Positions 1-3,975 of a stretch of DNA of 64,000 nucleotides are shown here, piece by piece. The position numbers were made by a program, and so were the translations under genes. How positions within the stretch are numbered: the first letter of the stretch is position 1; each line of letters begins with the position of its first letter. A model generated the notes under the pieces. The model ran no database searches. It saw nothing but the letters and a program-made list of their open reading frames with translations, and was not told the DNA's origin. Source of the stretch: Enhydrobacter aerosaccus (GTDB lineage: Bacteria; Pseudomonadota; Alphaproteobacteria; Reyranellales; Reyranellaceae); contig NZ_FUWJ01000003.1 of NCBI RefSeq assembly GCF_900167455.1, positions 124,001 through 188,000 on the forward strand, written 5' to 3'.

Positions 1-970
1 TGTCGAGGTCCGGGGCGGCCTGGCCCCATCGCACCATCTGGCCGAGGAACCAGTCGGCGTGGCTGCGCCAGGGGAAGTTGGCGAAGCTGCGATGGAAGAC
101 ATGGAAGTCGGCGATATCGAGCGTGCGCGCCAGGATCTCCACCGGCGTGTTGAGATAGCGCGGGCTCGACAGCACGCGGGCGGCCTCGGCGCGATTTGCT
201 GGCTCGTCCAGCCATTGGCTGGCTTCGATCAGGGCCTTGATCAGCGCCTTGAGCGTGTTGGGATGTCGCTCCGCCCACGCCTCGGTGACGCCCAGCACCT
301 TCTCCGGCATGCCGCGCCAGATGTCTGGACCGGTGAGCACGATGCGTCCGATGCCGAGCGCCACCGCGCGCTGGTTCCAGGGCTCGCCGACGCAATAGCC
401 GTCGATCACCTTGGCCGACAGATGCGCCACCGTATGCGGCGGCGGCACGACCGTGAGCCGGACGTCGTGATCGGGATCGAGGCCGCCCGATGCCAGCCAG
501 TGGCGCAGCATGTAGTTCTGGACCGAATAGGGAAACACCGACGCCAGCACGATGCGGGGCGCGCCACGGGCAGCGCGCTGGCGGACCACGGCCGCGAGGG
601 CGCGCGCCACCAGCGGCGGATGACCGGCCCCGGCGAGATCGGGCGCGGCCTCTTCCATCTCGCGCCACAAGGCCTGCGACAGCGTCAACGCGTTGCCGTT
701 CAGCTCAAGCGTCATGGCGTTGATCATCGGCACCGTGACGCTGTCCATGCCGAGCGTCAGCGCCAAGGGCAGGGGCGACAGGATGTGCGAGGCATCGAGA
801 ACGCCGAGCGCCAGCTTGTCGCGCACATTGGCCCAGGACACTTCGCGGCGGATCTCGACCTCGAGCCCCTGTCGCTCGTAGGCGCCGAGCTCGTCCGCCA
901 GGATGATCGGCGCGCAATCGATGATCGGAATGTATCCGACATTGAGTTTCGTCCGCTCGAGTTCGGCCAT
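1..970 (-). CDS. nasS: NasS-type nitrate-sensing protein (NrtA/CmpA family), C-terminus beyond window edge
   Basis: The reading frame starts at 970 (MAELERTKLNVGYIP) with a GGAG 11 bases upstream and runs off the left edge after about 323 codons. The fold signature is that of periplasmic nitrate/bicarbonate binding proteins (NrtA/CmpA), with the opening 'VGYIPIIDCAPIILADELG' typical of the family. There is no signal peptide, so the protein should be cytoplasmic. That, together with nasT directly upstream, fits NasS, the nitrate sensor that binds and inhibits NasT until nitrate or nitrite is present. It lies behind an RNA leader with a terminator (986-1105), so its own expression probably depends on NasT. 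It could instead be a cytoplasmic NrtA paralogue; the missing signal peptide argues for NasS. Nitrate assimilation genes would be expected further left, outside the window. Confidence 0.82.
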   Translation of the reverse strand, partial: MAELERTKLNVGYIPIIDCAPIILADELGAYERQGLEVEIRREVSWANVRDKLALGVLDASHILSPLPLALTLGMDSVTVPMINAMTLELNGNALTLSQALWREMEEAAPDLAGAGHPPLVARALAAVVRQRAARGAPRIVLASVFPYSVQNYMLRHWLASGGLDPDHDVRLTVVPPPHTVAHLSAKVIDGYCVGEPWNQRAVALGIGRIVLTGPDIWRGMPEKVLGVTEAWAERHPNTLKALIKALIEASQWLDEPANRAEAARVLSSPRYLNTPVEILARTLDIADFHVFHRSFANFPWRSHADWFLGQMVRWGQAAPDLD

Positions 971-985
971 GTCGTACGCGACTCC

Positions 986-1026
986 AAAAACAAAAAGCGC
1001 CCCGCTCGGCCGGCAAGATTTGCCGG
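986..1026 (-). terminator. Intrinsic terminator in the nasS leader
   Basis: Read on the minus strand, a 7-bp hairpin (1010-1026, CCGGCAA/TTGCCGG, 3-base loop) is followed by a short GC hairpin AGCG-GGG-CGCT (996-1006) and then two runs of five T separated by one G (986-996). It ends 16 bases before the nasS start, so it would cut off transcription of nasS and anything downstream unless antiterminated. Confidence 0.7.
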
Positions 1027-1033
1027 TCGCTCA

Positions 1034-1105
1034 GGACGCCGTTGTCCACGTGCGGACCGCCATTGGTCCGCGTCTAACTCAGGAGAGAACCCACCGTTGG
1101 GTCTC
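1034..1105 (-). promoter_or_regulatory. ANTAR (NasT) target: three hexaloop hairpins in tandem
   Basis: Three hairpins on the minus strand each present a six-base loop with A at position 1 and G at position 4, the known signature recognised by ANTAR-domain antiterminators. P1 at 1085-1105 has stem ACCC/GGGT (extended by GAG/CTC with one bulge) and loop AACGGT. P2 at 1052-1071 has a perfect 7-bp stem GCGGACC/GGTCCGC and loop AATGGC. P3 at 1034-1047 has a 4-bp stem GGAC/GTCC and loop AACGGC. P1 and P2 are 13 bases apart, P2 and P3 four. The terminator follows at once. NasT, encoded just upstream, is the obvious ligand. Most described ANTAR sites have two hairpins, so the third is unusual, although its stem is short. 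Confidence 0.75.
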
Positions 1106-1214
1106 GCGGAAGGAGACGCACAAGTCGTGCCAATCCGGGTCGCACGGCGCGCCTTCCGCTAAGTGTCTGAAATCGCCTCTCCATGCCGACCGACCGCCTA
1201 TCGCAGCAGTGGCT

Positions 1215-1233: not shown

Positions 1234-1821
1234 CTATTTCTTCAGCACCTTTGCATAAGTAACGAGCTCCTGCGCGACCTCGCCGATGCGCTTGTTCTGG
1301 TCCATGGCGAGCTTGCGCAACAGCTTGTAGGCCGCCTCCTCGCCCAAGCCCCGCTGCTCCATCAGCAGGCCTTTGGCGCGATCGATGGCCTTGCGTTCGA
1401 GCAATGTGAGCCGCGCGCGCTCCAGCTCCTCGCGCATGGCGTGATAACGGTTGAAGTGGCCCACGGCGACATCGAGGACCGACCGGACCCGGTCCTGGGC
1501 CAGCCCTTTCACCACATAGGCCGAAACGCCAGCCTCCATGGCCGCCGCAATCGTGGCCGGATCGGACTGGTCGACGAACAGCGCGATCGGGCGCGGCTGC
1601 TGCTCGGTGCTGCGGCGCATGTCCTCGATGGCATCGCGACTTGGACTGTCGGTGCTGACCACCACGACATCGGGGCTCAGGTCGCGCACCCGGGCCGTGA
1701 GATCCTGCGTGCCTTCCAGCCGGGCAAGAAGGCGATATCCGGCGGCCTGCAGTCCGGCTTCGACGACCTCGGCACGGGCAGGATTATCGTCGATCAGCAG
1801 AACGGACAGGGTCTTCGTCAA
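1234..1821 (-). CDS. nasT: NasT: ANTAR-domain response regulator / antiterminator
   Basis: 195 residues. The N-terminal two thirds is a pseudo-receiver domain (LSVLLIDDNPARAEVVEAG) and the C-terminal part, about 130-190, is an ANTAR RNA-binding domain (LLERKAIDRAKGLLM, then GLGEEAAYKLLRKLA). ANTAR proteins bind paired hexaloop hairpins and prevent termination; NasT does this for nitrate/nitrite assimilation operons and is held inactive by NasS. The start at 1821 is TTG: an in-frame stop lies upstream and no ATG or GTG comes early in the frame. Three matching hairpins and a terminator stand directly downstream, in front of nasS. The kinase gene ends 59 bases upstream on the same strand, so nasT may be read through from it or have its own promoter there. 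Confidence 0.9.
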   Translation of the reverse strand: MTKTLSVLLIDDNPARAEVVEAGLQAAGYRLLARLEGTQDLTARVRDLSPDVVVVSTDSPSRDAIEDMRRSTEQQPRPIALFVDQSDPATIAAAMEAGVSAYVVKGLAQDRVRSVLDVAVGHFNRYHAMREELERARLTLLERKAIDRAKGLLMEQRGLGEEAAYKLLRKLAMDQNKRIGEVAQELVTYAKVLKK

Positions 1822-1880: not shown

Positions 1881-3890
1881 CTAAGGTGCTGATTCCACTT
1901 GCTTGCCAGCTTCCCAGCGACCCGGAACGCCCTTGCCGTCGGCACCGAACACCTCGCCGTAGCCCTGGCGCTTGCTGCCCTTGAACTCACCTTCGTAGCG
2001 TTCGCCGTTGGGCAGGGATTCGACGCCCAGGCCGTCCAACTGGTCACCGTGCCATTCGCCCGACTGCACGCCGCCGCCGTTGCCGGTCAGGCGGCGAACG
2101 GCGAGTCCATCCAGACGACCATCGACGAAATTGCCTTCCGCGCGTTCCGTTCCGGGCCTTTCGCGCACGCCCAGGCCGGTCGACTGGCCATCGCGCCATT
2201 GCCCTTCGTAGCGCGAGCCATCCGGCAGACGTACCGTGCCGAGGCCATTGAGGCGGTCGTCCTTCCATTCGCCCGACTGCCGCTCGCCGGTGTCGAGGGT
2301 CGCGACCCCGAGCCCATCCCGCTGCCCGGACATGGTCTGGCCGATATAGCTCGCGCCATTGGGATAGGAGAGCCGCTGGGCGTTCTCGAGCCCGGGCCGC
2401 GCCGCGCGCGCGGCGACGATGCGGGCCTCGCCCGCCGCGGCCCGTCCGGCATCGGCTGCCTCCTTTGCCTTGTCGGCGGCGTTGCGGCCTTGAGTGGCGG
2501 CGCGCTCTGCCTGGCCGACCAGCGCCTGCCGCGCCATCGAGGCCGAACCGTCGGTCGGCGCCGAAGCCGGCGGTGCAGCGCCCGCGGAAGGTTTGAGCGG
2601 CGTGGGACTCGGCAGCGTCGCCGCATTCGGCGGTGGCGATGCCGGCGCGGCAGGCTGCGCCGTAAGAGCGGTCGGCCCGGTGCCGCCTTGCGCCGAGTCC
2701 GAAGACCCCGAGGCAGGCGGTGCCGATATCAGCGGCGGCGGCAAGTTGTCAGTCGCGCTCGACGAAGAGGCCGTCGTCGTTCCCGAAGGCTTCGGCGTGA
2801 TGATGCTGCGCACGTCGGGCGATAGGTACCAAAGCGCGGCCGCGCCGCCGGCAGCGACAACTGCCAGAACGGGCAGCCAGCGCCTGCCCGCCGCTGGCCG
2901 TGGACGTGGCTCGGAGAGCGGCGGCGTGAAGTCGCGCTGCTCGCGCTGGACGCCGCCCAGGCGGGGCGCCGCAGCCGGCTCCATCCGCTGCGTCGGGGCG
3001 TCCTGAGCCGACGGCAAAGAATTGCCGAACAGGGCACGCCATTCGCTGACCGATTGCGGCCGGTCGGGAGCGGCAAAGGCCAGTCCGCGGTCGACCGCCG
3101 CCAGGAACGCCGGATCGAGCCGCCCGGCCTCGCTCTCGGCCAGCGGCCGGTAAGGATCATGGCCGACACGCGACGCGGCCTCGGGCGGCGTCCGGCCGGT
3201 GATGGCGTGGTAGAGCACAGCGGCGGCGGAATAGATGTCGCTCCACGGCCCCTGCTTGCCGTCGAACGCATATTGCTCGATCGGCGCGTATTGGGGCGTG
3301 AGCACGCCGGTCAGCGTCCGGGTGCGGTCTCCCATGGCGCGACGAGCAGCGCCGAAATCGATCAGGATCGGCACGCCATCGCGGCGGATGATGATGTTGG
3401 ACGGCTTGATGTCGCGATGGAGAAAGCCTTGGGCATGGACGGCAGCCAGCCCGCTCAACAGCCCAGCGGCCAGCCGCCGGACATCGTCCGGCGCCAGCCG
3501 ACCACCCGGCTCGCGCAACAGCTCGGCGACATTCCGGCCGTCTTCAAATTCCATCACCGTGTAGGCAGTGCCGTTGGCCTCGAAATAGCGCAGCACGGGG
3601 ACGATGTGCGGATGGCGGAAGCGGGCGAGCGCGCGCGCCTCGTCGAGGAAGCGCTCCCGGCCCCAGGCAAAGTCGTCGGCATAGCGGGCCCCGCGCGGCA
3701 CGACATCCTTGTCTGCCTTGCGCACGGCGCATTCGACCGGCAGGTACTCCTTGATCGCCACCATCTTGGCGAGCTGGCTGTCGAAGGCCCGATAGGTGAT
3801 GCCGAAACTGCCATGGCCGATCACCGCGTCGAGGCGGAAGTCGCCGAGCTGGGTGCCGAGCGGCAGGGCCTGGACGTTGTCGTGAGTCAT
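1881..3890 (-). CDS. Membrane serine/threonine kinase with C-terminal MORN repeats
   Basis: A Hanks-type kinase of 669 residues from the ATG at 3890; an in-frame ATG at 3917 would add nine, and no clear Shine-Dalgarno decides between them. The kinase core (about 15-285) has a glycine loop GHGSFG, the lysine in VAIKEYLP, HRDIKPSN and the DFG of LIDFGAAR, so it looks active. A Pro/Ala/Arg-rich linker leads to one membrane span near 337-356 (LPVLAVVAAGGAAALWYL). A long Pro/Ser/Ala-rich stretch follows, then an Ala-rich helical segment, then about six MORN repeats (from about 508 to the end; repeats of LPNGxRYEGEF / DGLGV type). This puts the kinase in the cytoplasm and MORN repeats outside or in the periplasm. 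Substrate unknown. Confidence 0.88.
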   Translation of the reverse strand: MTHDNVQALPLGTQLGDFRLDAVIGHGSFGITYRAFDSQLAKMVAIKEYLPVECAVRKADKDVVPRGARYADDFAWGRERFLDEARALARFRHPHIVPVLRYFEANGTAYTVMEFEDGRNVAELLREPGGRLAPDDVRRLAAGLLSGLAAVHAQGFLHRDIKPSNIIIRRDGVPILIDFGAARRAMGDRTRTLTGVLTPQYAPIEQYAFDGKQGPWSDIYSAAAVLYHAITGRTPPEAASRVGHDPYRPLAESEAGRLDPAFLAAVDRGLAFAAPDRPQSVSEWRALFGNSLPSAQDAPTQRMEPAAAPRLGGVQREQRDFTPPLSEPRPRPAAGRRWLPVLAVVAAGGAAALWYLSPDVRSIITPKPSGTTTASSSSATDNLPPPLISAPPASGSSDSAQGGTGPTALTAQPAAPASPPPNAATLPSPTPLKPSAGAAPPASAPTDGSASMARQALVGQAERAATQGRNAADKAKEAADAGRAAAGEARIVAARAARPGLENAQRLSYPNGASYIGQTMSGQRDGLGVATLDTGERQSGEWKDDRLNGLGTVRLPDGSRYEGQWRDGQSTGLGVRERPGTERAEGNFVDGRLDGLAVRRLTGNGGGVQSGEWHGDQLDGLGVESLPNGERYEGEFKGSKRQGYGEVFGADGKGVPGRWEAGKQVESAP

Positions 3891-3975
3891 CGGGGGCGTG
3901 TTAATCAGCCCCTTCATGCGCGTTCGCGGGCGCGCGCACAAGCTCCGTTACGTCGCGCGCCGGACGGCGCAACGA

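Follow-up and report, generated by a model that had tools for sequence, protein, structure and literature searches.

The gap between nasT and nasS in the window (the whole 64-kb stretch of DNA analysed here, from the 6.77-Mb genome of a soil bacterium that its named relatives place in Reyranella) very probably encodes a nitrate-responsive NasT antitermination leader, in which three ANTAR hairpins lie between a sigma54-type promoter and an operon that starts with nasS, the gene for the NasT inhibitor, and continues with nrtABC, a sirohaem nitrite reductase gene, nasA and cysG. The whole feature is read on the minus strand (Table 1). At the level of sequence comparison we could establish the hairpins and their loops, the terminator and its exclusivity with the third hairpin, the partnership with nasT and the order of the operon.

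Table 1. Features of the nasT-nasS region of the window, in the order in which they are read.
Feature	Position	Strand	Remarks
nasT	1234..1821	(-)	195 aa, TTG start; antiterminator with receiver and ANTAR domains
sigma54-type promoter, TTGGCACG-ACTT-GTGCG (GG-N10-GC)	1117..1133 (1133-1117 in reading order)	(-)	consensus match
P1, ANTAR hexaloop hairpin	1085..1105	(-)	GAGACCC-AACGGT-GGGTTCTC (1105-1085), loop AACGGT 1098-1093; outer stem with one bulge or G-U; extra hairpin at the predicted mRNA 5' end
P2, ANTAR hexaloop hairpin	1052..1071	(-)	GCGGACC-AATGGC-GGTCCGC (1071-1052), perfect 7 bp, loop AATGGC 1064-1059; first half of the canonical dual motif
P3, ANTAR hexaloop hairpin	1034..1047	(-)	GGAC-AACGGC-GTCC (1047-1034), loop AACGGC 1043-1038; antitermination hairpin
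Intrinsic terminator hairpin	997..1039	(-)	43 nt; -29.3 kcal/mol
U tract, TTTTTGTTTTT	986..996	(-)	from sequence; T-run after the terminator hairpin conserved in the alignment
Probable nasS ribosome binding site, GGAG	982..985	(-)	from sequence
nasS, cytoplasmic nitrate/nitrite sensor	1..970, ATG at 970	(-)	3' end beyond the window

A sequence-only reading of this DNA had described three hexaloop hairpins with A at loop position 1 and G at position 4 (A1/G4), followed by a terminator and nasS; all of these are present on the minus strand and are conserved in an alignment of 45 Reyranella species. That reading made no mention of the sigma54-type promoter directly upstream of P1. When the C of its GC element is set at -12, the transcript is predicted to start at about 1106, one base ahead of P1. 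The match to the sigma54-dependent consensus (GG-N10-GC, TGGCAC...TGC) recurs in relatives: 44 of the 45 Reyranella leaders have such an element ahead of their first hairpin, and the remaining one (L017) has Ns at this place. Some leaders (L014, L017, L018, L028 and L032) carry about 20-40 nt extra between the sigma54-type element and P1, with a hairpin that is not of the ANTAR hexaloop kind (e.g. CCGCAATG-CATC-ATTGCGG). A near-palindrome, CATGCTGCAYATGCGAGCATC, recurs in L020-L033 right after the nasT stop, about 100 nt upstream of the sigma54-type element, and is a possible enhancer; it was not seen in the window. Here a gene for a Ser/Thr protein kinase with C-terminal MORN repeats (1881-3941, minus strand) precedes nasT by 60 bp in the same orientation, and the two are possibly co-transcribed.

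Considered in a single sequence the hairpin triple is only mildly surprising, since two turned up in 60 simulated strands of 64 kb (an expectation of about 0.07 per window), and this chance estimate is weak evidence; for the three hairpins as sequence features it is the comparative evidence that is decisive. We aligned 45 leaders from Reyranella, a genus whose sampling is MAG-heavy and in which nasT is present in 50 of 65 genomes. Across this alignment 96.4% of the cells of P1, P2 and P3 are paired compared to 88.6% in shuffled alignments, and eight pairs show changes on both sides, amounting to 62 such cells compared to 22.6 in the shuffles. Not one of 500 shuffles reached the observed value either for cells paired or for the covariation score, and controls slid along the alignment dropped to 34-56% paired, with the caveat that kin sequences can beat shuffles without structure. 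The stems of P1 and P2 both covary across the genus, P2 having changes on both sides at five pairs and 97.5% of its cells paired. The loops are equally constrained: A1, A2 and G4 are kept in all 41 species that have P1 (it is missing in 4 of the 45), P2 has G4 in 45/45 and A1 in 44/45, and P3 has both A1 and G4 in every species, with a stem (GGAC/GTCC) that is itself invariant in 45/45.

Published ANTAR motifs are dual (PMC3369931; PMC8164766). The motif, two adjacent hairpins with A1/G4 loops and stems of at least 3 bp, is found as P2-P3 in all 45 species, with one A1 exception, and P1 comes as a third hairpin in 41. The published description states no upper limit on the number of hairpins; exactly two are found only in L010, L042, L044 and L051, and three in 41 of the 45 leaders. 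Because the last two hairpins match the motif completely, we read the three-hairpin leader, from its sequence, as an extension of the ANTAR-target family. Rfam gave no match in the window at gathering thresholds.

The terminator is built partly from P3, the 3' arm of P3 together with its loop bases 5-6 being the terminator 5' arm. In the 45 leaders 94.3% of the terminator cells are paired, with changes on both sides at six pairs. The outermost of its pairs joins P3 loop base 5 to the terminator 3' arm (alignment columns 82-130); it is an A-U pair in 19 species and a G-C pair in another 19. As this covarying pair uses a base of the P3 loop, P3 and the intrinsic terminator exclude each other; that the four stem pairs of P3 never vary fits a 3' arm that has to take part in two helices. 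Judged by its sequence the arrangement is the classical ANTAR antitermination switch. The terminator fold was calculated at -60.8 kcal/mol, compared to -48.9 kcal/mol with P1, P2 and P3 enforced, and without protein it is the fold predicted to be favoured. The RNAalifold consensus left out P1 and shortened the terminator, since one consensus cannot contain two exclusive folds, and we therefore counted pairs in the named structures instead. The sequence-only reading had staked its case on the conservation of loop A1/G4 and of the terminator in relatives, and both are conserved.

The same reading had further proposed that the 3' arm of P2 pairs with the 5' arm of P3 (GTCC-GCACGT-GGAC, 1044-1057), giving an anti-antiterminator that excludes P2 and P3 alike. 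All four of its pairs are possible in the window and in the majority of relatives, but they show no compensatory change, score at the level of shuffles and lose their U-A pair in 8 species. Moreover P2 alone reaches -13.1 kcal/mol, far beyond what a 4-bp stem could give, and the terminator already excludes P3. We consider a role for this fold highly improbable.

Nor do the three hairpins offer two equivalent pairings, P1-P2 and P2-P3, as had been suggested. In Reyranella the P2-P3 linker measures 2-6 nt (mostly 3-5), whereas that between P1 and P2 measures 12-17 nt, P3 overlaps the terminator, and P1 has been lost twice. Natural linkers in the eut system are 5-12 nt long, and linkers of 3 and 14 nt impaired induction (PMC3369931); most P1-P2 linkers thus fall outside the range that works there. 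Since P1-P2 linkers are mostly beyond this range and P3 overlaps the terminator, P2-P3 is, by analogy with eut, the canonical dual motif and a better canonical pair than P1-P2. The losses of P1, in L010 and in L042/L044/L051, fall in separate supported clades of the NasT+NasS tree, and in these leaders the sigma54-type element is about 32 nt closer, adjoining P2. As P1 was lost in two lineages, the comparison of leaders points to a hairpin that is useful but dispensable, not essential for the switch. In the clade of L042, L044 and L051 the U tract is also shortened, to 3-4 T, as though termination had weakened along with the loss of a recruitment hairpin.

We conjecture that P1 is an auxiliary hairpin for NasT recruitment, a suggestion that draws on the handover model of PMC8934654. 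It might instead bind no NasT, and be a stem that stabilises the 5' end or part of a DNA site for sigma54 or its activator, given that it begins where the transcript is predicted to begin, is lacking in 4 of the 45 species and is preceded in some species by another, non-hexaloop hairpin. However, a DNA site or a plain stem would leave unexplained why P1 loop A1, A2 and G4 are kept in 41/41 species while the stem changes in a compensated manner, as well as the similar hairpin that 20 of the 33 other NasT leaders surveyed have at this position (1.5 expected); we regard this alternative as unlikely.

The protein encoded upstream fits the leader. NasT matches Pfam ANTAR at 6.3e-20 and Response_reg at 5.3e-09, and contains a receiver and an ANTAR domain with no nitrate-sensing domain. 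Its best PDB match is EutV (6wsh/6ww6), whose architecture it resembles. When considering the residues by which EutV contacts RNA (PMC8934654), R142, K143, K149, E160 and Y164 are kept in NasT as R143, K144, K150, E161 and Y165, and K147 is replaced by R148. We searched the genomes of the genus for the leader with a covariance model (R1), which found it in 47 of the 50 genomes with nasT but in none of the 15 that lack the gene (Fisher p 4e-12); all 47 strong matches within Reyranella are in genomes that carry nasT. Together with the conserved loops and the covarying terminator, this distribution bears out the earlier proposal of a NasT-type ANTAR antitermination leader. The three nasT genomes that lack it have a stop in nasT (G013), a truncated nasT match (G063) or a deletion that takes the leader (G059). 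The deletion in G059 (locus L231) removes promoter and leader and joins the beginning of nasS to a point midway through nasA, but nasT itself is intact; the locus is a decaying nitrate operon. In the genome of the window the covariance model finds a single leader (E 2.8e-29). The next match (6e-3) is coding-like, as are the other weak matches inspected, and the model found no further leader in this genome.

NasS can be assigned in a similar manner. The part of the gene inside the window matches Pfam NMT1_2 at 1.1e-85 (1.9e-85 for the entire protein), and its relatives in the PDB are NrtA (2g29) and the regulatory domain of a nitrate transport ATPase. The full-length protein (L008) has 384 aa and no signal peptide, and is thus an NrtA-like binding protein without a signal peptide, encoded beside nasT; by analogy it would bind nitrate and sequester NasT. 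The next gene, nrtA, overlaps nasS (ATGA) and encodes an NrtA with a Tat-type signal, unlike NasS. On the same strand follow genes for an ABC ATPase, a sirohaem nitrite/sulphite reductase-type protein, a molybdopterin nitrate reductase (nasA) and CysG. The gene that separates nrtA from the ATPase gene gave no Pfam match in the frame checked, and we assume from its position that it is nrtB. The sequence-only reading had placed nasS under the leader. This holds in that nasS lies immediately downstream, but it is not nasS alone: as read from the gene order, the leader heads the whole operon nasS-nrtABC-nir-nasA-cysG, of which nasS is the first gene. As the operon continues past nasS, the leader would control the pathway and nasS with it. 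A leader serving nasS alone was ruled out by the ATGA overlap with nrtA and the pathway genes downstream.

Having nasS behind a NasT leader recurs across lineages in three gene orders, though in most sampled lineages nasS lies upstream of the leader. A nasS without signal peptide is the first gene downstream of the leader in Reyranella, Azospirillum, L111, L176 and L181; it follows nrtA and nrtB behind the leader in L175/L177/L178/L179, and follows nrtABC behind the leader in gammaproteobacterial loci (L109/L110/L119/L129). Desertibaculum (L108) has the order nasT-leader-nasS too, but with G at loop position 1 of the last hairpin. Two loci (L138, L200), where a NasS-similar protein has a Tat-type signal or hydrophobic leader, were left out of the nasS count.

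Because NasS inhibits NasT without nitrate (PMC3795266), placing nasS behind the leader would give negative feedback by construction. By this analogy, feedback through nasS behind its own antiterminator is plausible, if conjectural, and is strengthened by other lineages in which nasS again lies behind a NasT leader. Against this stands a reading to which we give somewhat less than an even chance, that the leader is an ordinary pathway attenuator with nasS merely its first gene, and that basal leakage or read-through from nasT makes enough NasS for there to be no meaningful feedback. It is consistent with the ATGA overlap joining nasS to nrtA and the pathway genes, and with the majority of sampled lineages having nasTS upstream of the leader, yet still regulating (PMC5424462). 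Feedback could therefore be an accidental outcome of how the operon is arranged. With nasT directly upstream, read-through from that gene could also supply some nasS, though such transcripts also meet the terminator. However, the occurrence of nasS behind NasT leaders in unrelated lineages and in differing orders (nasS first; nrtA-nrtB-nasS; nrtABC then nasS) is more than a single accident predicts, and any NasS encoded downstream of the terminator would rise with antitermination by construction.

To see hairpin arrays more widely, we surveyed 54 leaders from other lineages, or 33 once those with NasT more than 80% identical were removed, with the numbers expected by chance taken from dinucleotide shuffles of these sequences. 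Of the 33 leaders, 17 have a hexaloop hairpin with A1/G4 in the place of P2 (0.5 expected), 20 have one in the place of P1 (1.5 expected) and eight have both, giving all three hairpins (0.01 expected); a stricter count agrees. The nasT-nasS gap of Azospirillum sp. TSO22-1 (L139) apparently has four ANTAR hexaloop hairpins in series ahead of its terminator. Six Reyranella genomes of one subclade (L268-L273) have a second NasT-type leader upstream of nirB, with three hairpins (gaggcAATGAAgcctc, gcgtccAATGGCgggcgc and ggcAAAGCTgcc), a terminator and a sigma54-type element of its own. That three hairpins are peculiar to the present locus was ruled out by the survey and by this second triple leader. 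As controls, Paracoccus yeei and Shinella have two hairpins, with nasT and nasS adjacent. We suggest, tentatively and with the chances leaning against it, that arrays of three hairpins (apparently four in Azospirillum) are common in NasT leaders and that the upstream hairpins are successive loading sites, relaying NasT to the terminator-overlapping hairpin as polymerase proceeds, with their number tuning efficiency; with nasS inside the operon, the whole would act as a circuit that balances itself, free NasT being titrated by the NasS that it causes to be made.

A different picture emerges in sister genera of the Reyranellaceae, including Vineibacter (L058-L062), where the order nasT-leader-nasS is found with two hairpins and a sigma54-type element, with no U tract, and with a P1 3' arm (GGGCGACTCC) complementary to the nasS Shine-Dalgarno region (GGAGTCG). 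These five sequences suggest, as a lead, that NasT acts there by translational control instead of antitermination, and ANTAR RNAs that act on translation are known in actinobacteria (PMC8164766). That the leader of the window likewise acts on nasS translation, besides or instead of termination, appears improbable, as the Reyranella leaders have a covarying terminator with a conserved T-run behind it, and complementarity to the Shine-Dalgarno region is only about 4 nt.

An antitermination switch in the window would work as follows. Under nitrogen limitation, transcription from the sigma54 promoter would begin only a few bases from P1. In the absence of nitrate NasS would hold NasT, the more stable terminator would form and transcription would end before nasS. 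With nitrate, free NasT would load on P1 and/or P2 and stabilise P3; because the 3' arm and last two loop bases of P3 are the terminator 5' arm, polymerase would continue into nasS and the pathway genes. P1 would raise the chance of NasT being in place in time. As nasS would be made only after antitermination, free NasT would make its own inhibitor, a negative feedback that would match NasS to NasT and speed shut-off once nitrate is exhausted. From the systems described below we infer that NasT binds the leader and controls read-through, and likewise the nitrate response and the use of the leader under NtrC/sigma54.

The leader probably sets its own level, in an operon starting with its own inhibitor gene. 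If true, placing an inhibitor gene behind its own antiterminator, as several lineages do, would be a simple way to build feedback into nitrate assimilation. Whether an extra hairpin raises read-through or lowers the NasT needed could readily be tested on leaders that differ naturally in having one, two or more upstream hairpins, among them those of close species without P1. In the open-access literature searched, we found neither extra hairpins in NasT leaders nor an inhibitor gene behind its own antiterminator. By its sequence this is a genuine NasT leader, well supported as an RNA, a variant within the ANTAR kind that is set apart by its third hairpin and the position of nasS, and not categorically new.

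The closest known system is that of Paracoccus denitrificans, which shares an ANTAR-domain NasT homologue, a cytoplasmic NasS and a hairpin leader before a nitrate-assimilation operon. There NasT binds the leader, in which hairpins HI and HII are described, nitrate dissociates NasS from NasT, and the order is nasTS-leader-nasABGHC (PMC3795266, PMC5424462), with nasTS a cotranscribed separate unit upstream of the leader that is expressed at a low level in all N sources (PMC5424462). Here, in contrast, the leader separates nasT from nasS, the attenuated operon includes nasS and the hairpins number three instead of two. The dual-hairpin EutV antiterminator of E. faecalis (PMC3369931, PMC8934654) shares the A1/G4 hexaloops, a last hairpin that shares bases with the terminator and a short last linker; the extra hairpin 12-17 nt upstream lies outside its two-hairpin definition, and the signal here would be nitrate via NasS, compared to ethanolamine via EutW. 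The nasF leader of Klebsiella oxytoca (PMC3369931, PMC5424462) is similar in the nitrate-responsive ANTAR antitermination of an assimilation operon under Ntr (nitrogen-limitation) control, but it is served by the one-component NasR, which has a NIT sensor and no NasS, so that no inhibitor is encoded in its operon.
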